The translations under genes were made by a program, and so were the position numbers. DNA of 64,000 bases from Vandammella animalimorsus (GTDB lineage Bacteria > Pseudomonadota > Gammaproteobacteria > Burkholderiales > Burkholderiaceae_C), in NCBI RefSeq assembly GCF_002285285.1, contig NZ_NSJF01000004.1, positions 186,001 to 250,000 of the forward strand, in the 5' to 3' direction. Under the pieces are notes generated by a model. The model had not been told where the DNA came from. It worked only from the letters and a program-made list of their open reading frames with translations, and did no database searches. This document shows positions 4,407-40,947 of the stretch, piece after piece (within the stretch, counting starts at the first letter, position 1; each line of letters begins with the position of its first letter).

Positions 4407-5258
4407 TCAGCCTGGGGTCTGCGCGGCCTCGCAGCGCACCTGCAGCAGCTCGCGCTGCGCCAGGCTGGCGCAGCCAAAGCGCATGGCGCTCAGGCAGCCG
4501 CCCCAGACGCAGCCGGTATCCAGCGCCAGCACCTTGTCGCGGTCCTGCAGGCCCAGCGTGGACCAGTGGCCAAAGGCGATCATGGTATCGGCGCTGGCGC
4601 GCCAGGGCACGTCGAACCAGGGCACGCAGTCCTCGGGCGCGTGGGCGGCGCTTTCGCTGCTGCTGAAGTCCATGCGCCCCTCGCGCAGCGTGCAAAAGCG
4701 CAACCGCGTCAGCGCATTGACGATGGCGCGCAGCCGGTCGGCGCCTTGCAGGGCATCGTCCCACACATCGGGGGTGTTGCCATACATGCTGTGCATGAAG
4801 TCGATGCAGCGGGGCTCGTCGCGCAGCACGGCCTCGACCTCGGCGGCCAGCGCCAGCGCCTGCCGGGCCGTCCACTGCGGCAGCACGCCGGCGTGCACCA
4901 GCAGCAACGGCTCGTCCAGGCTGTCCACCCAGCGCGCCAGCGGCTGGTGGCGCAGCCAGTGCAGCATGGCCTGGGCATCGGGGGCCTTGAGCACCTGGCC
5001 CAGGGTGTCGCGCTTGTTTTTCTTGCGCGCCTTGTAGTGCCGCGCCAGCAGGTGCAGGTCGTGGTTGCCGAGGATGGCCGAGATGGCCCCATCGGCGGCC
5101 ATGCAGCGGCGCAGCACGGCGGCCGATTCGGGGCCACGGTTGACCAGATCGCCCAGCAGATAGGCATGGTCGCGGCTGGGGGAAAAGCCGGCCTGATCCA
5201 GCAGCCGCTGCAGGGCGCTGTCGCAGCCCTGGATGTCACCGATGCAATAAATCGCCAT
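4407..5258 (-). CDS. apaH: Bis(5'-nucleosyl)-tetraphosphatase, symmetrical
   Basis: This 283-residue enzyme hydrolyses diadenosine tetraphosphate to two ADP in the cytoplasm. The metallophosphatase signature is complete: GDIQG (7-11), GDLVNRGPES (36-45) and GNHD (64-67), then LVHAGVLPQW and a C-terminal FGHWSTLGL with ALDTGCVWGG. These match ApaH in order and spacing, and the length is usual. It starts at the ATG of AIYCIGDIQG. In many proteobacteria apaH sits elsewhere (next to ksgA/pdxA); here it stands alone, upstream of lon on the same strand with a 93-bp gap that carries the lon promoter, so it is probably a separate transcription unit. Confidence 0.95.
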   Translation of the reverse strand: MAIYCIGDIQGCDSALQRLLDQAGFSPSRDHAYLLGDLVNRGPESAAVLRRCMAADGAISAILGNHDLHLLARHYKARKKNKRDTLGQVLKAPDAQAMLHWLRHQPLARWVDSLDEPLLLVHAGVLPQWTARQALALAAEVEAVLRDEPRCIDFMHSMYGNTPDVWDDALQGADRLRAIVNALTRLRFCTLREGRMDFSSSESAAHAPEDCVPWFDVPWRASADTMIAFGHWSTLGLQDRDKVLALDTGCVWGGCLSAMRFGCASLAQRELLQVRCEAAQTPG

Positions 5259-13392: not shown

Positions 13393-14207
13393 GCCACGCC
13401 CACCAAGCCCCCACACCCGCCGCGCCAGCCGTATCCGCCGCGCCGTTGCTGGCCGTGGAGAACCTGCACGTGCGCTACGGCAAAAGCGCCGCCTTGTTGG
13501 GCGCCCAGCTGCAACTGGGCCAGGGCGAGCTGGTGTGTGTCATCGGCCCCAACGGCGCGGGCAAATCCTCGCTGCTCAACGCCCTCATGGGCTGCCTGCC
13601 CGCCAACGGCAACGCCAGCGGCACGGTGCGCATTGCCGGGCAGGATGTCTCGGCCCTGCCGCTGGAGCAGCGCGTCAAACGCGGCCTGGCGCTGGTGCCC
13701 GAGACGCGCGAGCTGTTTGCCAGCATGAGCGTGGAGGACAACCTCATCCTCGGCAGCTACCTGCTGCGCCACCAGGGCGCGGCCCAGCGCCAAGCCCTGC
13801 TGCAAGAGATCTTTGCCCTGTTCCCGCGCCTGAAAGAGCGGCGCAAGCAGCCTGCGGGCACCATGTCCGGCGGCGAGCGGCAAATGCTCGTCATCGGCCG
13901 CGCGCTCATGAGCCGCCCGCGCGCGCTCATGCTCGACGAGCCATCGCTGGGCCTGGCGCCCAAAATCATGAACGAAGTCTTTGCCATCATCGAAGACCTG
14001 CGCGCCCAGGGCCTGGGCATCTTGCTGGTGGAACAAAACTCCCGCGCCGCCCTGCGCGCCGCCCGCTACGCCTACGTGCTGGAGCTGGGCGCCATCACCC
14101 TGCACGGCCCGGCGCAGGAAGTGGCCAACCACCCGCAAGTCATCGAAGCCTATCTGGGCAAAAAGCAAGTCTCGGCCGCCAGCATCGGCCAGCCTGCCGC
14201 TCTTTGA
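13389..14207 (+). CDS. livF: Branched-chain amino-acid ABC transporter ATP-binding protein LivF
   Basis: 272 residues with all ABC ATPase motifs: Walker [10 protein letters not shown] (53-61), signature MSGGERQML, Walker [14 protein letters not shown] and the LivF-type switch [12 protein letters not shown]. LivF pairs with LivG to energise the LivHM permease for leucine, isoleucine, valine or related compounds. Here LivG is truncated and the permease genes are missing, so LivF is either an orphan on its way to loss or works with permeases encoded elsewhere. It starts at the ATG overlapping the livG stop. No clear terminator follows before the convergent LysR gene. Confidence 0.88.
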
Positions 14208-14288
14208 ATAGCGAGCGTGTGGGCCCGCCAAGCATGGCAAGCCACAACCGATCAGGACAAGAGCTACGCCCCAAAGAGCGCCCTTTGA

Positions 14289-15236
14289 CTACAGCTCGTA
14301 ATCGCTCTCGCGCCCACTCATGGCCAGCTGGACCTGCTCACGACTCAAGCGTGGGCTGATGAGCTCGGCAAAGCGATAAACGAATTGGCGCAAGTATGCC
14401 CCCTTTTTGAATGCCACCCGCGCCATGTTCATGCCAAGCAAATCCCCCATCGGCCGGGCTTGCAGGTGTCCCAGCAACTCACCCTGTACGGCCATTTCTG
14501 CCACGATGCCCACGCCCAAACCCAGGCTAACATAGGTGCGAATCACATCCGAATCAATGGCCTCTAACACAATGTTGGGCTTGAGATTGCGGCGCGCAAA
14601 TGCGCGGTCAATGCGACCACGACCGGTAAATGATGGGTGATAGGTAATCAATGGTTCACTGGCAATATCTTCCAGCGTGATGCGCGGCTTATGCGCCAAC
14701 GGGTGCTGGGGCGGAAAAATCAGCACATGCTGCCACTCATAACAGGGCATAGTGACCAAATCTTCATAATCGGCCAGCGATTCGGTTGCCATGCCGATGT
14801 CCACCGCTTCATTCAAGATCAGGCTGGCCACTTCGTGCGGCGTAGCCTGGTGCAGACTGATGTTGACTTTGGGAAATTGCGCACGGAAGCGCGCCACTGG
14901 CTCAGGCAAAACGTAGCGCGCCTGCGTATGGGTGGTGGCAATGCGCAGCGTGCCCGAGTCTTGCGTGCTGAAATCCTTACCGATACGTTTGAGATTGCCC
15001 ACCTCACGCAAAATGATCTCGATGCTGGCAAGCACATGCCGGCCAGGCTCAGTCACACGCTTGAGTCGCTTGCCATGGCGCGCGAATATCTCAATCCCAA
15101 GTTCATCTTCCAACTCGATGATGGCCTTGGAAACACCGGGCTGCGAAGTGTGCAAAGCCTTGGCCGCTTCAGTCAGATTCAAATTGCGCCGAACCGCTTC
15201 TTGAACAAAACGAAATTGGTGGAGATTCATACGCAA
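14289..15236 (-). CDS. CysB-like LysR-family regulator
   Basis: 315 residues. The N-terminal helix-turn-helix (LHQFRFVQEAVRRNLNLTEAAKALHTSQPGVSKAIIELE) followed by LGIEIFARHGKRLKRVTEPG is diagnostic of the CysB/Cbl group, which controls sulfate assimilation or alkanesulfonate use with acetylserine or APS as effector. The C-terminal binding domain contains TTHTQARYVLPEPV, a CysB hallmark, then HQATPHEVASLI and SLGLGVGIVAEMA. I call it CysB-like and do not separate CysB from Cbl. Either of two Met codons two residues apart could be the start. The gene is monocistronic, convergent with livF, with no sulfur gene next to it. Confidence 0.85.
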   Translation of the reverse strand: MRMNLHQFRFVQEAVRRNLNLTEAAKALHTSQPGVSKAIIELEDELGIEIFARHGKRLKRVTEPGRHVLASIEIILREVGNLKRIGKDFSTQDSGTLRIATTHTQARYVLPEPVARFRAQFPKVNISLHQATPHEVASLILNEAVDIGMATESLADYEDLVTMPCYEWQHVLIFPPQHPLAHKPRITLEDIASEPLITYHPSFTGRGRIDRAFARRNLKPNIVLEAIDSDVIRTYVSLGLGVGIVAEMAVQGELLGHLQARPMGDLLGMNMARVAFKKGAYLRQFVYRFAELISPRLSREQVQLAMSGRESDYEL

Positions 15237-15492
15237 GCCCTACACGTCGTGTGCCAAGAATGAAAGCTGTACTCAAAGCGCCCAATTCAAGCGAGGCGCA
15301 TGCGACTGATTTCAGGCTGTGCGCCGCGTGAAGACCATTTCAGGGCTTGTGACCTCAGTTTTTCAACAAAAATGGCAGACGCAGTGAACACAGACATCGG
15401 CTGCCAAGGCCGGCATGTATGACGGTCGCAATGCTTTGATTGAGAGATGCAATGGTAGTGCGTGCAAACCCTTGCCACAGACAGCGCAGGCA

Positions 15493-15518
15493 CAAAAAAG
15501 CGCGCTCGAAAGCGCGCT
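15493..15518 (-). terminator. Terminator of the candidate small RNA
   Basis: AGCGCGCT (15499-15506), loop CGAA, AGCGCGCT (15511-15518). On the minus strand the GC-rich stem is followed directly by a run of T (complement of the A run at 15494-15499). A textbook intrinsic terminator in that orientation only. Confidence 0.75.
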
Positions 15519-15770
15519 CAACGGAAAAGAAAAGGCTGCGAGGCTACCCAGGGTGAAGATAGAGAGTGAGGGAGGAGAAGCACCAAGGGAGTCGTCAGCC
15601 AGGCGTTGCCTGGAAGCCTCGCAGCCAAAAACAATCATCGAAAGCCTGCCGCTTTCCATCGACTCCGTACAGAACTTAAAGTTCCGCTACCGATGAGGGC
15701 AGAGCAGACAAGCCTTGTCGATTCGTATCGAAGCGCCTTCTTAGCTAAGGGAACACACTTCAAACCCGTT
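15493..15770 (-). ncRNA. Candidate structured small RNA with its own promoter and terminator
   Basis: In an 800-bp gap with no credible protein gene, the minus strand has a promoter (TTGACA, 17 bp, AAGAAT), about 270 nt of structured sequence and a terminator. A 12-bp perfect stem joins 15534-15545 to 15615-15626 (GGCTGCGAGGCT with its complement). It encloses a hairpin CCAGGC-3-GCCTGG (15599-15613) and a long pyrimidine-rich single-stranded loop (15555-15585) containing CTCCTCCC, complementary to a Shine-Dalgarno core. Further upstream GAACTT/AAGTTC and CATCG/CGATG pairs form another hairpin. It matches neither 6S, tmRNA, RNase P nor SRP RNA. Family and function are unknown. Confidence 0.5.
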
Positions 15771-15776
15771 CGAGTG

Positions 15777-15805
15777 ATTCTTGCAGAACAACAACAAATT
15801 GTCAA
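15777..15805 (-). promoter_or_regulatory. Sigma70-type promoter for the candidate small RNA
   Basis: The minus strand reads TTGACA (15800-15805), a 17-bp spacer, then AAGAAT (15777-15782). The -35 is a consensus match and the -10 has four of six bases. Transcription would start near 15770. Confidence 0.55.
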
Positions 15806-16051
15806 CTGTTCAACAAAATCCTTTTTTTGTATGAGGATAAATGCATCGTGTTGAACATTCCGCCATTGCTTTTGCTGCGCCTGAACGCTGGCCGGGCCGG
15901 CAGGGGCCGCTGCTTGGTTCATGCCGCCGCCAACCGATGTGCAATGCGGCTTTTGTATGGGTGGGCTCTCAGCCTGGCAGCGCACGATGGCATTTGGCAC
16001 TGGCAATTTAAGGTGATGCACAGCCATTGGCTGTCGGCTAAGGCCCTTGTT

Positions 16052-30365: not shown

Positions 30366-32600
30366 ATGCCAACGCTCCCTGCCCCCCTGCCTTCCCCGCC
30401 TCCCGCCACGCCACGTCCCAGGCTTGCGCCGCTGCTGCAAGTGCTGGCCTGGCTGCTGCTGGGCGCGGTGCTGCTGCCATTGATCGGCATCGCTGCCTTG
30501 CTGGACAGGTGGCTGCCACAGCGCCTGCGCACGCTGCGCCAACGTCTTTGGGCCGAGCTGACCTCGATGCGCTTTGCCGTTGCACTGCTGCCCTTCATCG
30601 GCCTGGCCGCACTGCTGGGCACGCTGCTGCCGCAACGCGAATCGGCAGAACACTACCTGCACAGCTGGGGCCCCTTCTGGGGGACGCTGCTGATGCGCCT
30701 GCAATTGCACGACGTGTACGGCGCCTGGTGGTTCATGGGCTTGCTGGGCCTGCTGCTGCTCAGCACCAGCGCCTGCGTGCTGCGCAATGCCCGCCCTTAC
30801 CTGGCCGCCATGGGCGACTACCGATTGCCGCTGCGTCCGCAACAACTGCGCAGCCTGCCCTGGAGCGCCCAAGCCATGTGCGCCGGCCATCCCAGCGATC
30901 TGGCACAGCACATGCGCAACAGCCTGCGCCAGCGCGGCTGGCAGGTGCAAGTGCAACAGCGCCCAGCCCAGCCACACCCACATCAGGCCGAGGCCCCGGC
31001 CGAAACCGACTACTGGCTGCTGGCAGCCAAGCAGGGCGCTGCAGGCCACCGGTTGGGTTACCTGGCCACACATTGCGCCATCGTGCTGATCTGCCTGGGC
31101 GCGCTGCAGGACAGCAGCCTGGCGCTGCGCACCCACGCCTGGCGGCAAGGCCAAAGCCCTTGGCCCGGCCCGGTAGGCCTGCAGCCCGAGCAGCTGCAGG
31201 CCATTGCCAGCCCGCACCGCCTGCCCGCCGCCAGCCATGCGTTTCGCGGCCATCTGCGCCTGGCCGAGGGCGAGCGCAGCGCGCTGGCCCTGCTCGAAAG
31301 GCAGGCCGCCGGTTATTTCGTGCAGCAACTGCCCTTTGCCATTGAGCTGGAGCATTTCGAGATCGCACGCCATGCCAACGGCCAGCCGAGCATGTTCAGC
31401 AGCCTGGTGCGCATCCACCGGCCAGGCAGCGCGGCCAGCAGCCAACATCGCATTGCCGTGAACCAGCCCTTGCGCCTGCAAGGCATCGACGTCTACCAGA
31501 CCGGCTTTGAAGAACACCGCTCCGAGCTGCGCCTGCGCCCGCTGGGCCTGCAACGGCCCGTGCCCGCCGCCCCGCTCAGCGCCCACAGCGGCGATGCCCT
31601 GGCGCTGCCAGCCTGGCCTGGGCTGGCTGGCCACCGCCTGGAGCAACTGCGGCTGCACACTGGCCTGGAGGACGAGCCGAACCAGCCCCAGACGCCGCCA
31701 CCCGGCCCGGCCATCCAATACCGCCTGCGCAATGCGGCAGGTCAGGCCATTGAAGGCCGCAACACCATGCAGGCCCTTGAGCTGGACGATGGCGTGCCGG
31801 TGTATCTGCTGGGCGTGCGCCGCGCTCCAGATCAGCCCTTTGCCTACCTGCGCCTGCCACAGGACGAGCTGGGCGGCCTGGACAGCATCCTGGGTCTGTT
31901 GCACGGCCTGCACGATCCCGAGCAGCGCCAGCGCGCCGCGCAGCGCCATGCCCAGCACCACCTGCCCCAACAGGCCAACGCCCAGACGCGCGCTGAGCTG
32001 CAGCGCTCAGCCAGTCATGTGCTGGCCTTGTTTGCCGGGCAAAGCGCTGACGGCGCGGCCAGCGTGGCCGGCCTGACCGCACTGGCCCAGCTGACGCAGC
32101 GCCAGACTGGGCCAGCGCAGCAAGAGGCTGCCAGCCAGGGCCTGCTGCAACTGCTGTCGCAACTGCTGTTGAGCATGCTGCAGCAGCAACGCCAGGCCGC
32201 AGGGCTGCCGCCCATGCCGCCTGACAGCGCCTATACCGACGCCTTTCTGCGCAGCGCCATACTGGCTTTGGACGCCGCTCAGGACTACCCCGCGCCGCTG
32301 TTTTTCATGCTGGAGGATTTCACGCCCCAATACGCCACCATCCTGCAGGTGAGCCAGGCGCCAGGCCGCGGCCTGGTCTACGCCGGCTGCCTGCTGCTGG
32401 TGCTGGGCCTGGGGCTGCTGCTGTTTGTGCACGAGCGGCGGCTGTGGGTCTGGCTGCAGGCCGCGCCTGCAGGGCGCAGCCAGGCTACTCTGGGCCTGAG
32501 CTGCCCGCGCGCCGGCCCACGCACCGGGCAGGACTTCGACCAGCTGCGCCGCCTGCTGCTGCAAGCCTCTGCCGGCCCGACCACGACCGAACCCGAATGA
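30366..32600 (+). CDS. resB: Cytochrome c biogenesis protein ResB (Ccs1)
   Basis: 744 residues. ResB/Ccs1 works with CcsA to move haem across the inner membrane and attach it to apocytochromes c (System II). Three membrane helices occur in the N-terminal third (about 18-40, 60-82, 120-145), with RFAVALLPFIGLAALLGTLLPQRESAEHYLHSWGPFW being a family landmark. A large periplasmic domain follows and a last helix lies near 665-690 (LVYAGCLLLVLGLGLLLF), ending VHERRLWVWL. The start is the ATG of PTLPAPLPS; upstream in-frame sequence to 30129 overlaps engB. It overlaps ccsA by 4 bp. Confidence 0.92.
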   Translation: MPTLPAPLPSPPPATPRPRLAPLLQVLAWLLLGAVLLPLIGIAALLDRWLPQRLRTLRQRLWAELTSMRFAVALLPFIGLAALLGTLLPQRESAEHYLHSWGPFWGTLLMRLQLHDVYGAWWFMGLLGLLLLSTSACVLRNARPYLAAMGDYRLPLRPQQLRSLPWSAQAMCAGHPSDLAQHMRNSLRQRGWQVQVQQRPAQPHPHQAEAPAETDYWLLAAKQGAAGHRLGYLATHCAIVLICLGALQDSSLALRTHAWRQGQSPWPGPVGLQPEQLQAIASPHRLPAASHAFRGHLRLAEGERSALALLERQAAGYFVQQLPFAIELEHFEIARHANGQPSMFSSLVRIHRPGSAASSQHRIAVNQPLRLQGIDVYQTGFEEHRSELRLRPLGLQRPVPAAPLSAHSGDALALPAWPGLAGHRLEQLRLHTGLEDEPNQPQTPPPGPAIQYRLRNAAGQAIEGRNTMQALELDDGVPVYLLGVRRAPDQPFAYLRLPQDELGGLDSILGLLHGLHDPEQRQRAAQRHAQHHLPQQANAQTRAELQRSASHVLALFAGQSADGAASVAGLTALAQLTQRQTGPAQQEAASQGLLQLLSQLLLSMLQQQRQAAGLPPMPPDSAYTDAFLRSAILALDAAQDYPAPLFFMLEDFTPQYATILQVSQAPGRGLVYAGCLLLVLGLGLLLFVHERRLWVWLQAAPAGRSQATLGLSCPRAGPRTGQDFDQLRRLLLQASAGPTTTEPE

Positions 32601-33913
32601 CCCCTGCCGATCCCACCCCCAATCGCCCATCCAGGCCGATGGCACAGGCCCGCTGGCGCAGCGCCCTGTTCGCGCTGTGCGTGGGCGCTGCCTGCGCGGT
32701 CATCTGGCTGCAGCACGGCCGCCAGATGGCGCTGGCCGGGCACGCCCTGCTGCTGGGACTGGCAGTGCTGGTCTTTGCCCTGGGCCAGCACTGGCGCAGC
32801 TTGCAGGCCTTGGCGCTGGCCGTGGCCGTACTGGTTCTGCCAGCCATGGCCTTGCTGGGCAGCGACGATCCGCTGCTGCACCAACTGGCGGGCAACCAGC
32901 GCTACGTGGCCGGCATGTGCCTGCTGCTGGGCCTGGCCACGCTGCTGCACTGGCTGGCCCTGTGGGCGCGGCGCGGCAACGCCGCCCTGCAGCGCTGGGG
33001 CTCGCGCCTGGCCTGGGGGGCGTGCGCCCTGGGCATGAGCGCCAGCCTGCTGCGCTGGCATGAAAGCCACGGGCTGGGCCCCGGCATGGGCCATCTGCCC
33101 ATCGCCAACCTCTATGACGTACTGCTGCTGTTTTGCTGGCTGACCACGGCGCTGTACCTCTATGGCGAAAGCCGCTATGGCAGCCTGCGCCAAATCGGGG
33201 CCCTGGCGCTGAGCCTGGTCTGCGCTGCCGCCGGCCTAATGTTGTGGCATGGAGCGACCCACCAAGGCCATGCCATCGGCCCGCTGGTGCCGGCCCTGCA
33301 AAGCCATTGGATGGCCTTGCACGTGCCCGCCAACTTCATCGGCTACGGCTGCTTCACGCTGGCCGCTGCGCTGGCTTTTGCCTGGCTGCTCAAACACCAT
33401 GCCCAGCAGCGCCCCAGCTCTGCGGCGCAAGCGTTGCTGTGGCTGCTGGGCATGGCCCTGTGCCTGGTGCCACTGCTGCTGGGCAGTATGCGCTCCATGG
33501 GCTTTGACCAGCCCCACTTCTGGCTGCTGTGCCTGGGCTTGGCCATCGTGCCGGCCAGCGCCATCATGGCCTTGCGCGGCCCCGTGGCGCAGCGCCTGCC
33601 CAGCCTGGCCTTGCTGGACACTTTGCTCTATCAAAGCATTGCCTTGGGCTTTGCTTTCTTCACGCTGGCCACTGTGCTGGGCGCGATCTGGGCCGACCAG
33701 GCCTGGGGGCGCTACTGGAGCTGGGACCCCAAGGAAACCTGGGCGCTGATTGTCTGGCTCAACTACGCCAGCTGGCTGCACAGCCGCATGCTCAAAGGCT
33801 GGCGCGGCCCCTGGCTGGCCTGGTGGGCGCTGCTGAGCCTGGCGCTGACGGGCTTTGCCTTTCTGGGCGTCAACCTGCTCATGGGCGGGCTGCACAGCTA
33901 CGGGCGGCTGTAG
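32597..33913 (+). CDS. ccsA: Cytochrome c biogenesis protein CcsA (ResC)
   Basis: 438 residues with about ten membrane helices. The haem-handling motif reads WGRYWSWDPKETWALIVWLNYASWLH (about 370-395), and conserved His-bearing loops (HVPANFIGY and HSRMLKGWRG) fit the CcsA/CcsB family. It forms the haem channel of System II with ResB. The ATG overlaps the resB stop (ATGA). The last 42 bp are duplicated at 39039-39080 as part of a direct repeat that flanks the foreign island immediately downstream. Confidence 0.93.
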   Translation: MTPADPTPNRPSRPMAQARWRSALFALCVGAACAVIWLQHGRQMALAGHALLLGLAVLVFALGQHWRSLQALALAVAVLVLPAMALLGSDDPLLHQLAGNQRYVAGMCLLLGLATLLHWLALWARRGNAALQRWGSRLAWGACALGMSASLLRWHESHGLGPGMGHLPIANLYDVLLLFCWLTTALYLYGESRYGSLRQIGALALSLVCAAAGLMLWHGATHQGHAIGPLVPALQSHWMALHVPANFIGYGCFTLAAALAFAWLLKHHAQQRPSSAAQALLWLLGMALCLVPLLLGSMRSMGFDQPHFWLLCLGLAIVPASAIMALRGPVAQRLPSLALLDTLLYQSIALGFAFFTLATVLGAIWADQAWGRYWSWDPKETWALIVWLNYASWLHSRMLKGWRGPWLAWWALLSLALTGFAFLGVNLLMGGLHSYGRL

Positions 33914-34093
33914 CGATCAGCAGGCGGCGCTACCCCGGCTGACCGCGCGCCACGAACAGCAGCGACACCCCCAGCAGCAACAGCAGTGCGCCGATCACGC
34001 CATCGACCCAGCGCTGGCGCGCCAGCAGCGCGCGGCGCATGGCTGGGGCGGAGAAAAACAGCGCCACCACGCTGAACCAGACGATGTGCGCCA
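33872..34093. repeat. Left copy of the 222-bp direct repeat flanking the island
   Basis: 33872-34093 matches 39039-39260 over 222 bp without gaps and with about nine mismatches (about 96%). Both copies contain the last 42 bp of ccsA, the short convergent gap and the 3' end of lysE. Outside the two boundaries the flanks differ fully. Confidence 0.9.
33930..34093 (-). pseudogene. 3' fragment of lysE (left repeat copy)
   Basis: The minus strand keeps the stop codon (33930-33932) and about 160 bp of the 3' end of the LysE-family gene at 39097-39747, then breaks off at 34093. Just beyond the break the minus strand reads AAGGAGCTTCCT followed by ATG, a strong ribosome site and start codon from another source, now fused to the fragment. 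Confidence 0.8.
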
Positions 34094-34640
34094 CATAGGA
34101 AGCTCCTTTCTATGATGGTACTTGTTGAGGGCCTTGAGAGACCTGCTCCGGTGAGTGCTTTCGGGGTGGACGATCAGGACGGCGGGGACAGCCGACACAA
34201 AGGGTTTTCGGCATGGAGACCACACGCGGAGCGCAGTCCGCAGGACGAGCGCCGAACAGGCGACACCCCCTTTGGGCTGACTGAAGCTGTCATACATTCC
34301 ACAAAACCCGAAAGCAACCGGGGCAGGGCTAGCCTTTATCAAGTGGCACCACAGTAAGCCATGCACTGACACCGCGGCAGCCTCAGGCCCGCCAGGGCCG
34401 CAACCAGCAACCCAAAACTCTTTCTGGGCTGGCCTCTGCCCAGGCCAGCACTAACTGAGCAAGTAATGCCGCCAGGCGCCCCCCCAAGGCGGTGGGGAAA
34501 GGGCCTGCTCTCTCCCAGGAGGTCGAGTTCGAGCCGCGTAACGGCGGACAGGGGGCGGGCACGCCCCCGCGAATAAGGCCGAGGCATAGGCCATCTGTCA
34601 CGAGAGGAAGCGACTTTGTGAATAAATCGAAGGGGATTTG
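34094..34640. other. GC-rich left flank of the island, no recognised gene
   Basis: About 550 bp. A strong AAGGAG plus ATG on the minus strand at its left edge (about 34091-34108) shows that a gene start was cut here. Short open frames exist on both strands but none has family features. Base composition is like the host or other GC-rich mobile elements and differs from the AT-rich genes to the right, so the island is a mosaic. Confidence 0.5.
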
Positions 34641-35036
34641 TCACAGTGAGACTCCTATTTGTGGATAATTGCAGCGTTGTTCGCTCAGACCTTCATTCTT
34701 CATCGAGTTCTGGGCATCTTATCCACAAGAAAGTGTCTTTGGCTTCCTGTTGACTTTGACATATGATCTTGACTCCATTGAACCATCTAGGTCATCTGCC
34801 ACATAACGAGTTGGTTTATGGGCAAGTGCTTTTGCCAGCATAATATTTGACCTATGTACTACGGTCGGGACTTTATTAAAAATAAAGAAAGCACTCGCCA
34901 CCTGTCTGGGCACGTCAACACAGAGTGATAAATTTCCTAGAAAAACTTATCTAGACATCAATTATGCGCAACAGTTTTTCTTTCTGCGATGACATGCTCA
35001 TTGCTCCATTTATTTCAACGGCGTTTATTGAGAAAA
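34641..35036. other. AT-rich leader of the island operon with two DnaA-box-like sites
   Basis: About 400 bp without a gene. TTGTGGATAA (34659-34668) and TTATCCACAA (34719-34728) are perfect inverted copies, each containing the consensus DnaA box TTATCCACA. The rest is AT-rich and should hold the promoter of the four-gene operon; TTGACT and TTGACA occur near 34750-34765, but I cannot fix a single promoter. Confidence 0.45.
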
Positions 35037-36167
35037 ATGACCAAAAAATATGACATCATCATCGTAGGGGCTGGAGCGGCTGGGTTGATGGCAGCTCTTA
35101 AATTGAGTCAACTTGGCCTTTCTGTTGTTGTGTTAGAACAAAAGTCTTTACTTGCATCAGGCCCATCCACACGAAATGAAGGATGGTTACATAGAGGCTC
35201 TTATCACGCAATATCAATTCGCGATCGGATAAATGCGTTACAGGTTGCTCAGCGCTGTATATACGGACACGAGCAATTGAGAAGGTTTGCTCCAGAGGCC
35301 ATTGAAGATGCTGATAAAAATCCTATAGCTTTACTCAGGGATGGAAATCGCTTAAATGATGTAATCAGCCGCTGGGAAGAAGCTGACGTCGCTTTCAAGC
35401 AAATATCTTCAGAAAAAGCAACACATCTTGTACCAAGCGGAGACTTTTCCAGAGCCGCTGCCTTATTCGAGGTGAAAGATGTTTCGATTAATACCAGACT
35501 TCTTTATAGAAAGCTATTCTCAATGGCTAAGGCCATAGGTTGCAAATTTCTTATAAACCATACAATAGTTCGAAGCGAGGGATTAACTCTTGACGTAGAA
35601 GACCCCTTCGGAGAACGCCTATCTTTAAGCGGTCAGCGTATCATTTATACAACAGGCGCAGGAACCAAGTCTATATATTCCAAACTTCATAATTTCGAGA
35701 TACCAATGCGTTATTGGAAAAGTCATCTAGTAGTTACTAGGCGACTTGCTCCAATGGGCATTTTTTATCTTGACCCACAAGAAGCAGCAATGATGCACCA
35801 TGGCGAATTTTCCGTCATAGGATTCAACGAGGACGCAATTCTCTGCGAAAGTCCTAGCTACGATGTTATTCTTAGTAGGGCAAAAAATTTGCGCCAAGGA
35901 ATCAGCCGCATTTTCCCAAGTTGGAACGACCCATCATCAATGGATATATCCTGCGTCAAAGTTGACCTTCTCGATCATGAAAATACCGCTCGATCTTTAA
36001 ATGTAGCGATTCAAGAGCCAATTCCAGGTCATATCATCGCATTACCCGGAAAGCTCACAGAAACACCGTATTTAACTGATGTTTTGGTTTCTATGATTCA
36101 TCATGAAATAGATGATAACCAAATATCTCCGAGGCCTTGTGATAATTACTCCCAAACCACACCCTAG
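35037..36167 (+). CDS. FAD-dependent oxidoreductase, DAO / L-2-hydroxyglutarate oxidase-like
   Basis: 376 residues. The dinucleotide-binding motif is at the N-terminus (DIIIVGAGAAGLMAALKLSQLGLSVVVLEQ, residues 6-35). It is followed by SGPSTRNEGWLHRGSYH, the position where L-2-hydroxyglutarate and glycine oxidases have the SGHNSGVIHAG-type flavin loop, and by IIYTTGAGTKSIYSKL. Such enzymes oxidise 2-hydroxy or 2-amino acids. The C-terminus (PGKLTETPYLTDVL) differs from well-known members and the substrate is unknown. The start is the ATG of TKKYDIIIVG, preceded by GAG; a longer reading from 34989 is unlikely. It heads a four-gene operon whose A/T content and codon use differ sharply from the neighbours. 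Confidence 0.82.
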   Translation: MTKKYDIIIVGAGAAGLMAALKLSQLGLSVVVLEQKSLLASGPSTRNEGWLHRGSYHAISIRDRINALQVAQRCIYGHEQLRRFAPEAIEDADKNPIALLRDGNRLNDVISRWEEADVAFKQISSEKATHLVPSGDFSRAAALFEVKDVSINTRLLYRKLFSMAKAIGCKFLINHTIVRSEGLTLDVEDPFGERLSLSGQRIIYTTGAGTKSIYSKLHNFEIPMRYWKSHLVVTRRLAPMGIFYLDPQEAAMMHHGEFSVIGFNEDAILCESPSYDVILSRAKNLRQGISRIFPSWNDPSSMDISCVKVDLLDHENTARSLNVAIQEPIPGHIIALPGKLTETPYLTDVLVSMIHHEIDDNQISPRPCDNYSQTTP

Positions 36168-36179
36168 CATAGGAGTTTC

Positions 36180-36800
36180 ATGATGGCTATTAATCTCCAT
36201 ATACTGGATAAGGCGCGGATAGCTTCTGGTTTGCTTTCATTTGATGAAATTATAGCCTTATCATCTCATAACACAATTTATGACCCATTCTCCACCCTGA
36301 TATCTAAGGGGATTTCCATAGGAAGTGGCAATGTGATCTACCCTTCTACATGCCTCTTACTCGAAGGGGATGCCGTGTTTAAAGTAGGAGAGAAAAATAT
36401 ATTCTATCCAGGCACATCAATATCTGCCACTTATGGCGACATCATCATTGGGGACGGCAATCAGTTTGGTGAAGGTGGATTTGTTGCTAAAACGAATCGA
36501 GCAAAATCGCATATCACTATTGGATGCCATGGCCGCTATCTTGGCGGTGTATCCGTCTTTGGAGAGAGTCAGCTTGGAAATGGTTCACAAATACTCGGAG
36601 CCATTACCGTCGACAACTGTTATCTTGAGGCAGGAGGATCTTTTAATGACAAAAGGCCAGATCAACGTGCTGGTGTGCTGAAAGGCCAGGGTTATGCACG
36701 CAATTTATTCGTCCCCAAGGGGCATGTAATCTTTGCCCAAGGCGATTTCGAAGCCGCCTCAATGAAATCTCAACTTTTCTACCACCCAAACACAGCATGA
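36180..36800 (+). CDS. Left-handed beta-helix (hexapeptide-repeat) protein
   Basis: 206 residues. After about 40 helical residues the chain shows hexapeptide repeats: ISIGSGNVIYPSTCLLLEGDAVFKVGEKNIFYPGTSISA, DIIIGDGNQFGEGGFVAKT, ITIGCHGRYLGGVSVFGESQLGNGSQILGAITVDNC. This predicts a trimeric beta-helix of the acyltransferase/nucleotidyltransferase C-terminal type. No catalytic His in the usual acetyltransferase loop is obvious, so it may be an acyltransferase, a carbonic-anhydrase-like enzyme or a non-catalytic assembly protein. AGGAG (36171-36175) serves either of two adjacent ATGs (36180 or 36183; the second has the better spacing). The stop overlaps the next gene by 4 bp. Confidence 0.7.
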   Translation: MMAINLHILDKARIASGLLSFDEIIALSSHNTIYDPFSTLISKGISIGSGNVIYPSTCLLLEGDAVFKVGEKNIFYPGTSISATYGDIIIGDGNQFGEGGFVAKTNRAKSHITIGCHGRYLGGVSVFGESQLGNGSQILGAITVDNCYLEAGGSFNDKRPDQRAGVLKGQGYARNLFVPKGHVIFAQGDFEAASMKSQLFYHPNTA

Positions 36801-37555
36801 GTCCGACAAGCATAGAGTTAGGGCTTGGGTTACTCTCTATAGGCCGTCATTGGGGGGTACGCAATGCACCTCCACCACCACATGAGGTAGCGCTACGGCT
36901 TCTACAGAGAGCCATAGCATCGAATATTCGCTATTTCGATACAGCTCCTGCTTATGGAGATAGTGAGAAGATTCTCGGCACATTTCTATCAGAGCTTCCC
37001 AAGAAAGAGCGTAATCAGATTATCATTTTAACCAAAGTTGGTGAACTATGGCAATCTGAAAACCGGACAACTCAGGTCTGTCACAAAGCAGATAAAATGC
37101 GCCGCAGCATCGACTTGAGTTTGGAACGACTAACGAAAATTGACGTCCTGCAAATTCACAAAACCAATCCTGAAGTTCTACGCTCAACGGATTTATTAAA
37201 ATCTATACAATATGCAAAAGACCTTGGAATTTCATCGTTTGGAGCTTCCGTTTCAGATTTGCCAACTGCAGAACTAGCCATTCAGACTGGATTATTCGAA
37301 TGGCTTCAATTTCCTTTTAACGCAAACAATATCATATTCTCAAACATCTTCCATAAACTCGCCAAGAACAATATGAAGGCATTGATAAATCGCCCGCTTG
37401 CCATGGGGCAATTAGCCGCCCCCGATCAAATTAAAAGAGCCTTCGCATTCATATTGAATTCACCCCTCCCTACAGGAAGCGTCATATTAACAGGAACAGG
37501 ATCTCCTATGCATCTACAAGAAAATATAGATGCTTTTTCTCGTTTGACATCGTGA
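36797..37555 (+). CDS. Aldo/keto reductase
   Basis: 252 residues. The catalytic tetrad of the family is complete: Asp48 and Tyr53 in RYFDTAPAYGDSE, Lys80 in ILTKVGEL and His121 in LQIHKTNPE. The (beta/alpha)8 pattern follows, with ISSFGASV and the C-terminal GSVILTGTGSPMHLQENI, where the NADPH-binding loop normally lies. It is somewhat shorter than typical members (about 280-330), mainly in the C-terminal loops. It should reduce an aldehyde or ketone, or oxidise the alcohol, with NADP(H). It overlaps the genes on both sides by 4 bp, so all three are translationally coupled. Confidence 0.85.
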   Translation: MSPTSIELGLGLLSIGRHWGVRNAPPPPHEVALRLLQRAIASNIRYFDTAPAYGDSEKILGTFLSELPKKERNQIIILTKVGELWQSENRTTQVCHKADKMRRSIDLSLERLTKIDVLQIHKTNPEVLRSTDLLKSIQYAKDLGISSFGASVSDLPTAELAIQTGLFEWLQFPFNANNIIFSNIFHKLAKNNMKALINRPLAMGQLAAPDQIKRAFAFILNSPLPTGSVILTGTGSPMHLQENIDAFSRLTS

Positions 37556-38442
37556 ATTGGATAGGTTTTGGCATTCTCGCCGGCGTGGTTCTTGGTCTGT
37601 ACGATTATTGGACAAAGAAAGCAATGACCGGAAATATGGTAATAACGATCGTTTTTTGGTCGTCACTATTCGGCGCGCTAGCTTGGCTAGTCGCATTTTT
37701 ACCAATTACTGAAGGAACAAAATTCCATATCCTATTATCTGACACCAGCATAAATGATCAAATAATAATTCTTCTAAAAGGAATCATGATGACGGGTAGT
37801 TGGCTACTCGCTTACTATTCTGTACGTGAGCTGCCAATGTCTTTTTCAGGAGCGATGCGCGCCTCAGGCCCCTTATGGACAATGATAGGTGGAGCAATCG
37901 TCTTTCAAGAATTCTTGACGATTTTTCAGCTTTCTATTATCTCAATTACTATTGCAGCCTACTTTTTTCTTTCGCAGCTTGGCCAAGCTGAGGGCATTCG
38001 AATAATGCGTTCTGGGCCTGTGTTGATGATGCTTCTGGCCACAATACTCTCTGCAATGACGACAGTATATGACAAATTTATTATCCATGAACTTGGAATA
38101 TCATCAGTAACCGTTCAAGCATGGTCTGCTATTCACCGCCTTCTTTTGTCGGGACTGCTTCTTGTATGGGCCGGCCATAATAACCCGGAAATTTATAATC
38201 CTAAATGGTCTTTTTGGATTCCACTCGTTGGCTTGTCATGGGTAGCTGCAGAGTGGATATACTTTTTAGCAATTAATGACCCAAACTCCAACGTCACCTA
38301 TTTATCAGTTTTTCGCAGAATCAGCCTAGTTATTGGATTTCTGCTTTCCGCAATTCTAATTGGAGAAAAAAATGTAAAACAAAAATTTTTCGTTGTGGGG
38401 ATTCTTTTTCTCTCCACTGTAGCCCTAGCTCTCCTGGCCTAA
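37552..38442 (+). CDS. EamA-like permease of the island operon
   Basis: 296 residues with about ten hydrophobic segments in two halves, the DMT/EamA plan: GILAGVVLGLYDYWTKKAM at the start, GAMRASGPLWTMIGGAIVFQEF in the first half and NVTYLSVFRRISLVIGFLLSAILIGEK in the second. The paired motifs S/G-A-M-R-A-S and S-V-F-R-R-I-S lie in equivalent positions, as in exporters of this class. It starts at a GTG that overlaps the aldo/keto reductase stop (GTGA). In context it probably imports or exports the substrate or product of the neighbouring oxidoreductases. No terminator is evident after it. Confidence 0.8.
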   Translation: MNWIGFGILAGVVLGLYDYWTKKAMTGNMVITIVFWSSLFGALAWLVAFLPITEGTKFHILLSDTSINDQIIILLKGIMMTGSWLLAYYSVRELPMSFSGAMRASGPLWTMIGGAIVFQEFLTIFQLSIISITIAAYFFLSQLGQAEGIRIMRSGPVLMMLLATILSAMTTVYDKFIIHELGISSVTVQAWSAIHRLLLSGLLLVWAGHNNPEIYNPKWSFWIPLVGLSWVAAEWIYFLAINDPNSNVTYLSVFRRISLVIGFLLSAILIGEKNVKQKFFVVGILFLSTVALALLA

Positions 38443-38745
38443 AATAATTATTCGCAAATTTGATTTGGTCATCTTTTGACAGAAACGCAACCTTGACAAT
38501 CTGCGCTGCTTGCACCTCAGCGCATGCTTTTTAACGGTCTGCCACCAGCTTGAAGCTCTCGCATCCGTCGATCCGCACATCTCTTTGAACTTGTCAAGCT
38601 CCAATGGGAAAGGGTTACGGTGACTCGATGTAGTCAGCCTGGCGTCGCGCCACAAGAGAAAGATTGTGGTATGCATCCCATACGTGACTGGTAAAAGTGT
38701 TGCCTGCAAACAGCACAATCAGGCTCGGGTTAACCCAAACTCGAT
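38443..38745. other. Unassigned segment right of the island operon
   Basis: About 300 bp between the permease gene and the transposase remnant. A 97-codon open frame on the minus strand (38425-38718) overlaps the end of the permease gene and shows no family features. I see no terminator or structured element. Confidence 0.4.
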
Positions 38746-39038
38746 AGTTGTCGTATCCCGGACTCTTGGATGCTCTGGGTTGCCTGTGAAACAGCTCAGG
38801 CTCTTCACTGTACCAAGCCTTTATGGCCTACATGGGTGGCTCTTGAATGCAACGCCGACGCGGCAGCTGGTGGTTGTTCGATGCACATAGCGCTCAACCG
38901 ACTGGAGCATGTCCTGTCCATCGGTGAAGCGGTGCTCCTGAATACATCCGAGATGCGTCCACCATCCCGTTGGTCTGAGGCGTTCTGGGCCTGCTCAGGC
39001 GGTACTCAATGCCCAGCTGCTTGTATTGACCCAGTGAA
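38746..39038 (-). pseudogene. IS481-family transposase remnant (C-terminal part, frameshifted)
   Basis: Pieces in shifting minus-strand frames line up with the end of an IS481-type DDE transposase: QYKQLGIEYRLSRPRTPQTNGMV (39029-38961), GRISDVF, then EHRFTDGQDMLQSVERYVH (38937-38881), NHQLPRR, and AIKAWYSEEPELFHRQP ending PGYDN near 38746. At least two frameshifts and a stop break it. The 5' end is cut at the boundary of the right direct repeat (39039). It marks past insertion-sequence activity at this edge of the island. Confidence 0.75.
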
Positions 39039-39260
39039 AACCTGCTCATGGGCGGGCTGCACAGCTACGGGCGGCTGTAGCGATCGGCTGGCTGCGCTAA
39101 CCCGGCTGGCCACGCGCCACGAACAGCAGCGAAACGCCCAGCAGCAACAGCAGCGCGCCGATCACGCCATCGACCCAGCGCTGGCGCGCCAGCAGCGCGC
39201 GGCGCATGGCTGGGGCGGAGAAAAACAGCGCCACCACGCTGAACCAGACGATGTGCGCCA
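39039..39260. repeat. Right copy of the 222-bp direct repeat flanking the island
   Basis: Same sequence as 33872-34093 with about nine differences. It opens with a 42-bp fragment of the ccsA 3' end (39039-39080, with its stop codon) that has no gene in front of it, and runs into the intact lysE gene. The original junction was therefore ccsA and lysE meeting tail to tail. Confidence 0.9.
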
Positions 39261-39747
39261 GCGACATGAACAGCCCATAGCCCAGGCTGCGCGCCAGCGG
39301 CGTATCGGCATGCACCACCTGGGTATAGACCGCCACGACGAACAGCATGGTCTTGGGGTTGAGGGCGTTGGTGAAAAAGCCCATGCGCCACGCTGCGACA
39401 GCGCTCAGCGCCTGATCGGCTGGGGCCTGGCGCTGCTCCTCGGCCGCCTGTGCTGGTGCCGCAGCGCGCCAACTGCTGCGCAGCGCCTGCAGCCCCATGA
39501 ACACCAGATAGGCCGCGCCCAGCAGCTTCAGCAATGCAAACAGCCAGGGCGAGCGCAGCACCAGCAGCGCCACGCCCAACACCGTGTAACACACGTGCAC
39601 CTGCACGCCAGCGCCAATGCCCAGCGCCCCGATCACGCCAGTGCGCGGGCCGAAGAGGTAGCTGGTGCGCGCAATCATGGCGAAGTCCGGCCCCGGGCTG
39701 ATCACCGCCAGCACCGTGATGCCAATCACGGCCAACCATTCATGCAT
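39097..39747 (-). CDS. LysE/RhtB-family amino-acid exporter
   Basis: 216 residues with about six membrane helices. The family opening is clear: EWLAVIGITVLAVISPGPDFAMIARTSYLFGPRTGVIGALGIGAGVQVHV, followed by GAAYLVFMGLQALRSSW and GFFTNALNPKTMLFVVAVYTQ. Such proteins export amino acids (Lys, Arg, Thr, homoserine, Leu). The start is the ATG of HEWLAVIG; the upstream extension to 39840 is Arg-rich and not family-like. A LysR gene is divergent, the typical LysE/LysG arrangement. Its 3' end is duplicated at 33930-34093. Confidence 0.9.
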   Translation of the reverse strand: MHEWLAVIGITVLAVISPGPDFAMIARTSYLFGPRTGVIGALGIGAGVQVHVCYTVLGVALLVLRSPWLFALLKLLGAAYLVFMGLQALRSSWRAAAPAQAAEEQRQAPADQALSAVAAWRMGFFTNALNPKTMLFVVAVYTQVVHADTPLARSLGYGLFMSLAHIVWFSVVALFFSAPAMRRALLARQRWVDGVIGALLLLLGVSLLFVARGQPG

Positions 39748-39810
39748 GGCTCGCCCCCTGCCCGCCGCAGCGCGGCGCGGCGTGCGGCGGCTGGCACAAT
39801 CGCCGCCCGG

Positions 39811-39867
39811 GCAGCGCCCCAATCCGCTCTTTTTGCCCATTGGGCCGAGACTGTGAACAGGCTCTCA
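39811..39867 (-). repeat. Half copy of the dispersed repeat between lysE and lysR
   Basis: On the minus strand GAGAGCCTGTTCACAGTCTCGG is followed by ATGGGCAAAAAGAGCGG and a TTGGGGCGCTGC block. This matches the left half of the full copies at 5293-5463 and 43482-43655. It sits in the divergent gap, just upstream of both regulatory regions. Confidence 0.6.
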
Positions 39868-39975
39868 TGCTTGCCTGCATTGCGATTCCTCCAGTGATAC
39901 GAAGGCGCGCAGTATCTGCAGCCCGAGCGCGGAGGAAAAGCGATTTTTACGCCCCTTGATCCGTGCATTTTCATC

Positions 39976-40947
39976 GTGCTTGGCCCTGCAGACTCCCCGC
40001 TCTCGCGCATCCCTCTGGCGGCGCTGCGCTATTTCGATGCTGCCGCGCAGACCGGCAGCTTTGCCCAGGCCGCCCAGCGGCTGCACGTCACCCACAGCGC
40101 CGTCAGCCGGCAGATCCGCCAGCTGGAGCAGGCCCTGGGCGTGGCACTGTTCGAGCGGCGCAACCGGGCCGTGTTTCTCACCGCCCAGGGGCGCTTGTTG
40201 CATGCCACGACCTCAGCGGCATTCGCGCAACTGGATGGCGCCTTGCAGCAGCTGCGGCAGCGCCCGGACAGCCAGCGCCTGGCGCTCTCCTGCGAGCCCA
40301 CGCTGGCCATGAACTGGCTCATCCCCAGGCTGCCCTCGTTTCAGCGCCGATACCCGCACATCTCGCTGCATTTGCTGGCCGCAGGCGGGCCCATTGACCT
40401 GCAGCGCAGCGGAGTCGATCTGGCGCTGCGTCGCAACGACTTCGCGTGGGACAGCGCCAGCGTGCATGCCAGCAAGATCTGCGATGAATGGATTGGCCCG
40501 GTCTGCCGCGGCGGCCTGGCCCAGGCGCGGCGCCTGCACACGGCCACGCGCCCCGATGCCTGGGCCGCCTGGCAGCGTCTGCACACCAGCGGCAGCCACG
40601 CGGCAAAGGCAGCACCAACAGCATCAGGGACGACACCCAGCACGCGCCGCGCGCTGCGCCAGGCCTCAAATCCAGCAGACCAAGCGGGCCAGGCGCAGCA
40701 CTATGAACACTTTTATCTGAGCATCCAGGCCGCTGCAGCAGGCCTGGGGGTGGCCATGGCCTCGGTGCTGATGGTGCACGACGCGCTGGCCAGCGGGCAA
40801 TTGCATGCACCGCAAGGGTTTGTTCGCGATGGCTCCAGCTACCACCTGCTCAGCCGCGTGCCCTGGGCAGAGGCCAGCACGGCCTGCCTGCAATTGCGGC
40901 AATGGCTGCAGTCCGAGGCAGCCGCCTGCTGCCCACAGCCCACATGA
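39976..40947 (+). CDS. LysR-family regulator (GcvA-like), partner of lysE
   Basis: 323 residues. The DNA-binding domain is clear (LAALRYFDAAAQTGSFAQAAQRLHVTHSAVSRQIRQLEQALGVALFERRNRAVFLTAQG, about 13-70), with HTHSAVSRQI typical of the GcvA subgroup. The binding domain has EPTLAMNWLIPRLPSFQRRYPHISLHLL, DLALRRNDFAW and AAAAGLGVAMASVLMVHDAL. A stretch around 205-240 (GSHAAKAAPTASGTTPSTRRALRQ) is low-complexity and looks like an insertion. It begins at a GTG (VLGPADSPLSR). It is divergent from lysE and probably controls it in response to an amino acid, by family analogy. Confidence 0.87.
   Translation: MLGPADSPLSRIPLAALRYFDAAAQTGSFAQAAQRLHVTHSAVSRQIRQLEQALGVALFERRNRAVFLTAQGRLLHATTSAAFAQLDGALQQLRQRPDSQRLALSCEPTLAMNWLIPRLPSFQRRYPHISLHLLAAGGPIDLQRSGVDLALRRNDFAWDSASVHASKICDEWIGPVCRGGLAQARRLHTATRPDAWAAWQRLHTSGSHAAKAAPTASGTTPSTRRALRQASNPADQAGQAQHYEHFYLSIQAAAAGLGVAMASVLMVHDALASGQLHAPQGFVRDGSSYHLLSRVPWAEASTACLQLRQWLQSEAAACCPQPT

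Follow-up and report, generated by a model that had tools for sequence, protein, structure and literature searches.

A rare, mobile four-gene cassette of Vandammella animalimorsus, probably delivered by a TrfA-type plasmid, with a plausible role in redox chemistry and transport

The closest described relative of the genes considered here is the PA4991-PA4992 operon of Pseudomonas aeruginosa, in which a DAO/GR2-fold enzyme dependent on flavin adenine dinucleotide (FAD) is encoded together with an aldo/keto reductase. Both genes share one operon, the crystal structures of both proteins are available (PDB 5ez7; 4exa/4exb), both are reported to be important for growth in cystic-fibrosis sputum and their substrate is not known, the authors inferring for PA4991 one that possibly bears a phosphate or carboxyl group (PMC4741190). 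The same pairing of enzymes is found in a stretch of 64,000 nucleotides from Vandammella animalimorsus (contig NZ_NSJF01000004.1, positions 186,001 to 250,000; hereafter the window), where a four-gene block at 35037-38442 also encodes a beta-helix protein and a membrane carrier. We regard this block as a genuine, rare and mobile four-gene unit with a clear history, whose biochemical role is plausible but unproven.

The block opens with an FAD-dependent oxidoreductase of the DAO/GR2 type (gene 1, 35037-36167, 376 aa, with an alternative in-frame ATG further upstream at 34989), followed by a left-handed beta-helix protein of hexapeptide type without a Pfam family (gene 2, 36180-36800, 206 aa), a short aldo/keto reductase whose nearest solved relative is PA4992 (gene 3, 36797-37555, 252 aa) and an EamA/DMT-type membrane carrier with a GTG start (gene 4, 37552-38442, 296 aa), all on the plus strand. 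An earlier, sequence-only reading had described four same-strand genes joined by one 12-bp gap and two 4-bp overlaps in an AT-rich block within a GC-rich setting. The coordinates of the open reading frames (ORFs) agree with it, with the gap between genes 1 and 2 and the overlaps between genes 2 and 3 and genes 3 and 4, as does the guanine-plus-cytosine (G+C) content, which is 42.5% in the block vs 67.8% in its flanks and reaches 41-47% in a 1-kb profile between 35 and 39 kb of the window. A second, milder dip (59% and 53%) occurs at 14001-16000. At the protein level, gene 1 matches PF01266 DAO over residues 6-295 (85.8 bits, cut-off 27.9) and keeps the GxGxxG FAD motif as GAGAAG, gene 3 matches the aldo/keto reductase family PF00248 (88.1 bits) and gene 4 matches PF00892 EamA in two stretches (57 bits), whereas the Pfam scan of the gene 2 protein returned no family. 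An Rfam scan of 33500-40000 gave no family reaching its gathering score, and promoter and terminator scans gave counts about 1 standard deviation or less from those of shuffled sequence.

That the four genes form a unit, as the sequence-only reading had proposed, was borne out in other genomes, where the expected co-occurrence was found. A search started from the beta-helix protein yielded 38 genome loci and 7 plasmid records (5 of them read), and 11 of these genome loci carried the complete set, with order and strand unchanged: Roseinatronobacter (L008), Myxococcus (L009-L011), Corallococcus (L012, L013, L015, L018), Rhizobium (L017, L031) and Pannonibacter (L026). The junctions in these full blocks are mostly within ~20 bp, with gene starts assigned by us; the exceptions are a ~110-bp gap ahead of the carrier gene in L009-L011, the junction of the flavoprotein and beta-helix genes in L026, where the beta-helix match begins at residue 47, and an apparent 40-bp overlap of the beta-helix and reductase genes in L031, where the beta-helix frame is broken. 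This last Rhizobium locus also has a stop inside the FAD gene. Over nine loci, the distances of all six protein pairs were concordant (Mantel r 0.89-0.98, p 0.001-0.002), and it is this agreement of the distance matrices, together with the recurrence in the same order, that leads us to conclude that the four genes act as a unit. Moreover, non-synonymous divergence stays below synonymous divergence between Myxococcus and Corallococcus (dN 0.12-0.21 vs dS 0.52-0.72) and between the window and Roseinatronobacter (proportions of differences pN 0.17-0.27 vs pS 0.78-0.86, the latter saturated). Altogether, and as judged from sequence, these comparisons show the four genes to be a conserved operon under purifying selection whose proteins travelled together.

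Partial versions of the block are more varied. Among the other 27 genome loci, the beta-helix gene is accompanied by the reductase in three (L019, L020, L040), by a fragmented reductase and a radical-SAM gene in L028 and by the FAD gene in L027, where the reductase is divergent; the remaining 22 loci had none of the three partners at an expect value (E) of 1e-6 within the stretch examined, one of them (L025) having a different aldo/keto reductase upstream. Matches to the FAD protein and the carrier were present on all four Pantoea records, two of which (L002 10133-18900 and L006 6871-15639) show a three-gene version followed by an arginase/cupin/cupin/acetyltransferase-type/MFS run, with a recombinase-family gene upstream. 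The G+C content of the cassette is well under that of its flanks in the window, in both Rhizobium loci and in Pannonibacter, but not in Roseinatronobacter, Pantoea L002 or the seven myxobacterial loci.

The unit is also rare. With five candidates per genome scored among the matches listed, the flavoprotein was found at E 1e-20 in only one of 369 genomes of the window's class, namely the window's own, and in the order of Myxococcus the cassette was present in 2 of 79 genomes, counting the genome on which the search was centred. Nine genomes of the same genus yielded no relative of the beta-helix protein, and a beta-helix search of 100 genomes that included the window's own returned that genome and one 22% match (G026, E 1.2e-4). 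In viral contigs, 53 stretches fitted a pattern and none of them encoded the beta-helix protein.

A closer view of the flanks suggests how such a rare block reached this chromosome. The island extends beyond the four genes, from 34094 to 39038, and is bounded by 222-bp direct repeats at 33872-34093 and 39039-39260 that are 96% identical, the left copy taking in the terminal part of a cytochrome-c-assembly gene and, convergent to it, the 3′ end of a LysE-type gene. In the sister genomes G006 and G008 this stretch is present in single copy: window 32500-34093 and the right side from 39039 align to G006 with an overlap at 4981-5202, and likewise to G008, which is why we take 34094-39038 as the insert. 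Downstream of gene 4, on the minus strand at 38462-38746, lies a trfA relic, the remains of a gene for a plasmid replication initiator that is interrupted by stop codons and a frameshift. Over 38497-38753 its DNA shares 70.5% identity with the trfA region on plasmid p1 of Nitrosomonas eutropha, its protein match reaches 49% over 96 aa with stops and continues in a second piece in another frame (frames -2/-3), and the preserved C-terminal part still scores 25.6 bits with PF07042 TrfA (cut-off 22). The left flank (34094-35036), to which no gene could be assigned and whose scanned ORFs gave no Pfam family, is probably plasmid-derived as well. It has short matches to plasmids, at 34215-34263 (86%) to Collimonas pTer331 and others and at 34494-34571 (77%) to a site ~0.5 kb from trfA on a Herbaspirillum plasmid, and 38 of the 39 plasmid records with short matches to this arm are typed as conjugative. 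Three DnaA boxes at 34617-34727, a candidate relic of a plasmid replication origin, are the only exact TTATNCACA sites in the window (3 within 111 bp vs 0.43 expected, with no shuffle reaching 3). TrfA-type plasmid origins are expected to carry iterons; a check of the left flank for direct repeats found none.

These features strongly suggest, at the level of sequence, that the four genes arrived on a TrfA-type plasmid. The simplest reading would be that one crossover, within sequence common to plasmid and chromosome, brought the plasmid in, and that later erosion spared the four genes. Between the two 222-bp copies there are 9 differences in 222 positions, and 8 to 11 of 222 separate them from the sister genomes, a divergence that fits recombination between already diverged copies and may also be consistent with an old duplication. 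Other routes of entry were rejected: the window has no tRNA gene that could have been targeted for integration, and, against an insertion sequence or transposon, no transposase was seen in the five flank ORFs scanned and no inverted repeats were found at the island borders. Target duplications of transposons are expected to be shorter than 222 bp, so the length of the direct repeats counts against that origin too.

In regard to the flavoprotein, gene 1 has the overall fold of L-2-hydroxyglutarate oxidase, glycerol-3-phosphate oxidase and the glycine and sarcosine oxidases, and the fold neighbours of its structure model include L-2-hydroxyglutarate dehydrogenase and glycerophosphate oxidase, with 12-18% identity in the 50 fold matches among the matches listed. 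The earlier label of an L-2-hydroxyglutarate-oxidase-like enzyme was not supported in any specific sense, since the corresponding model NF008726 reaches 25.4 bits against a cut-off of 299, GlpA and other models score higher, and all 25 NCBIfam models among the matches listed stay far under their cut-offs. The best solved relative of the window FAD profile is PA4991 (5ez7), at E 8e-8 and over the N-terminal part only. A broader comparison used a family alignment of 13 of 20 flavoproteins encoded next to related reductases (see below), which matches PA4991 itself at E 1.4e-146; profile against profile, this family and that of the window were aligned over residues 4-355 (E 1.4e-12, probability 97.7). 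His52 and Lys339 of gene 1, invariant in 11 of 11 rows, are aligned with the active-site His53 and Lys345 of PA4991, positions checked on the PA4991 chain, which is numbered one higher. The relation of gene 1 to the PA4991 family thus appears near full-length but distant. Weak stretches of the gene 1 model include residues 51-60 and 306-321, home of two of the residues discussed here, and for this reason no active-site geometry was taken from it.

The reductase appears to give a closer tie to the P. aeruginosa operon. Its residues Asp48, Tyr53, Lys80 and His121, which we take to be the aldo/keto reductase catalytic tetrad, are invariant in 12 of 12 rows, as the sequence-only reading had anticipated, and its profile finds PA4992 (4exa) as the best solved match at E 4e-27, nine orders of magnitude ahead of the next (9e-18). 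When this profile was run at E 1e-22 against 339 genomes from the class of the window, which is presumably Gammaproteobacteria as GTDB defines it, matches were found at 28 places in 27 genomes, the window's own included. At 20 of the 27 other places an ORF recognised by the window FAD profile lies directly upstream on the same strand (E 8e-11 to 3e-4), and 7 places lack it. These couples differ from the block in that neither a beta-helix nor a carrier gene was found at any of the 27 places within the stretch examined, nor was an EamA- or beta-helix-type gene recognised among the called ORFs of larger stretches taken around 18 of those places (L097-L114). These 18 stretches hold genes of heptose metabolism. 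The heptose-7-phosphate kinase/adenylyltransferase gene hldE is present in 16 of the 18 (one match being partial at the stretch end), a count that is not a probability because the genomes belong to one class and a number of the stretches come from short contigs. Matches to waaA occur in 7, to gmhA in 3 and to genes resembling waaC in 8, seven of these at 22-26% identity. Gene order and orientation differ among the couple loci; in L097 there are 4-bp overlaps between the ORFs of gmhA, the flavoprotein and the reductase.

The beta-helix protein encoded by gene 2 is the least familiar member of the block. Evidence for its beta-helix nature, already proposed from the sequence, comes from profile hits on dynactin-6, CA3 and GlmU chains (E 9e-6 to 7e-5), together with weaker, consistent ones on complex-I and other gamma-carbonic anhydrases, LpxA and CcmN (down to E 4e-3), and not from the structure model (predicted local distance difference test score, 72), which gave no significant fold match (best Foldseek E 1.9). 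Hexapeptide acetyltransferases and gamma-carbonic anhydrases have conserved catalytic or metal-binding histidines in their coils. In contrast with hexapeptide acyltransferases, gamma-carbonic anhydrases and scaffold beta-helices such as GlmU, dynactin-6 and CcmN, to which its likeness is weak, gene 2 belongs to no Pfam family and retains a single histidine column in most of its rows, His202 close to the C-terminus (31 of 32). An acetyltransferase of the classical, histidine-dependent kind or a carbonic anhydrase relying on three histidines is therefore unlikely. Its 21 residues invariant over 32 rows include Arg13, Asp35, Arg119, Gln137, Arg163, Lys168 and Gln198, and the arginines and the lysine would fit the binding of an anion.

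Outside the block, this gene keeps other company. In Rhizobium and Sinorhizobium (L004, L005, L037) it directly follows a CofD-type gene of the YvcK family, the CofD domain being shown for L037; inositol-monophosphatase genes adjoin it in L004 and L005, and L005 has other phosphatase genes. In a Bacteroidetes and a Gastranaerophilales metagenome-assembled genome (L028 822-2610, L038 2219-4238) it adjoins a radical-SAM/SPASM gene. Both the CofD-type and the radical-SAM partner were considered as clues to its function and set aside, lying outside the four-gene block. As for gene 4, its EamA domain agrees with the DMT permease originally proposed. EamA and SMR proteins both belong to the DMT superfamily. 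The carrier differs from PA4990 of P. aeruginosa, which is listed as an SMR pump (PMC9779380). Matches to the carrier at ~27% identity occur in Bacteroidota, one of them between truA and a DUF3256 gene and another without annotation.

A further relative of gene 1, 30% identical over 98%, is encoded on plasmid pRA_T24_1 of Rhizobium anhuiense T24, which is absent from the beta-helix plasmid matches. In its unannotated cluster (L066 3226-9691) the FAD protein lies between genes whose products resemble GmhA, HddA, GmhB and the efflux protein SetB; a glycosyltransferase-like ORF and an ORF judged by eye to be Nudix-like complete the cluster. As in the block, a transporter, here of sugar-efflux type, lies near the FAD protein; the cluster differs in that no window-type reductase was found (plasmid collection, E 1e-22) and in having, in its place, genes resembling a heptose kinase, isomerase and phosphatase. 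Taken with the rhizobial phosphatase neighbours and the vicinity of hldE, this cluster suggests sugar-phosphate chemistry.

On these grounds we propose, with a probability of roughly 45%, that the block arrived by plasmid and works as a redox couple and carrier on a hydroxylated, anionic compound similar to a sugar phosphate or sugar acid. The flavoprotein would act on a compound bearing a phosphate or carboxylate, turning one of its secondary hydroxyls into a ketone. Using a nicotinamide cofactor, the aldo/keto reductase would then reduce a carbonyl, either of this intermediate or of the one that follows, and both enzymes together might in this way invert or relocate a hydroxyl. The beta-helix protein may bind or scaffold the anionic substrate rather than act as a classical acetyltransferase, and the EamA carrier would move the product across the inner membrane, more likely outward. 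Substrate class, cofactor use, direction of transport and the role of the beta-helix protein are all inferred; among substrate classes, a sugar phosphate or sugar acid seems most likely because of the likeness between the FAD-reductase core and the PA4991-PA4992 couple, which occurs next to heptose genes.

Several observations weigh against this proposal. The two Pantoea plasmids that were read have the FAD, beta-helix and carrier genes without the reductase. PA4991 was inactive on glycerol-3-phosphate and on 41 amines including amino acids (PMC4741190). Arg316 of PA4991 is aligned with Leu311 of gene 1, whereas the invariant residues Lys308 and Arg319 lie close by without Arg319 being its counterpart; the PA4991-family profile, run on the window's genome at E 1e-5, lists another protein and not gene 1; of 18 genomes searched with the window FAD profile, 9 have the reductase-adjacent flavoprotein as the top match, while in the other 9 it ranks lower or is missing from the matches; and the weak FAD matches are carried mostly by the N-terminal FAD-binding part. 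The pRA_T24_1 proteins score under the curated cut-offs of heptose and sugar-efflux models. Lastly, six heptose and lipopolysaccharide (LPS) queries at E 1e-5, hldE among the genes concerned, had no match in 43 beta-helix loci or the window, and for this reason the step from heptose to the cassette is one that we infer.

Other readings of the same genes have to be weighed against the proposed redox couple and carrier. The sparse spread in myxobacteria, rhizobia and Pantoea plasmids, with only three of the genes in the latter preceding the arginase/cupin/cupin/acetyltransferase-type/MFS run, would suit a cassette for tailoring and self-protection, in which a diffusible secondary metabolite or signal is made or neutralised and pumped out; we consider it rather unlikely, as a rough clustering of neighbours found no biosynthetic core gene common to the full-block loci and the Pantoea neighbour genes cluster only among themselves. 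Importers also exist among EamA proteins, and the fold neighbours of the gene 1 model would be in keeping with a catabolic cassette whose carrier imports a hydroxy or sugar acid that the FAD enzyme oxidises, the reductase recycling or detoxifying an aldehyde. Such a pathway is unlikely in our view, given that gene 1 meets no specific hydroxy-acid oxidase model and that the neighbour clustering, based on rough gene calls in which some true genes were missed, showed no further gene family common to all full-block loci.

The abundance of hldE, gmhA, waaA and waaC-like genes in the couple stretches, and the 4-bp overlaps in L097, could instead mean that the block is a direct cousin of PA4991-PA4992 and acts on the LPS core of its own cell, an idea we hold improbable in view of the empty heptose and LPS searches around the beta-helix loci and of the extra carrier, which points towards a soluble product. 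Just as improbable would be that these are passenger genes of a decayed plasmid whose expression was lost in this genome: the decayed flanks of the island and the stop in the Rhizobium FAD gene agree with it, but the four window frames are intact, their junctions are coupled and the substitution pattern against Roseinatronobacter is conservative. Within the proposed redox couple and carrier one may go further and imagine the cassette as a mobile, soluble-product offshoot of the heptose-linked PA4991-PA4992-type couple, epimerising a heptose- or sugar-phosphate intermediate in two redox steps while it is held on a new beta-helix carrier protein, and exporting the product as a diffusible compound. 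This more specific version is doubtful; if true, the same chemistry would account for the orphan P. aeruginosa couple.

The open-licence literature yielded nothing on the four-gene set or on a heptose link of the FAD/reductase couple, which is not proof of absence. The former remark that no described pathway with this gene set was known stands in so far as no paper was found on it, and has to be amended in that two of the four genes loosely resemble the PA4991-PA4992 operon, known from structures and with no known substrate. What the block offers is a protein without a Pfam family inside a conserved unit on which the open-licence literature searched gave nothing, and the window itself clearly illustrates how a probable plasmid, once integrated by a single crossover, can keep its cargo. 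The unit has been retained by alphaproteobacteria and myxobacteria as well as by the lineage of the window, and four genes kept together across these lineages must do something specific. Moreover, the tie to PA4991-PA4992 and the neighbourhood of hldE allow the problem of these orphan enzymes to be recast as a hypothesis on heptose or sugar-phosphate chemistry that can be tested.

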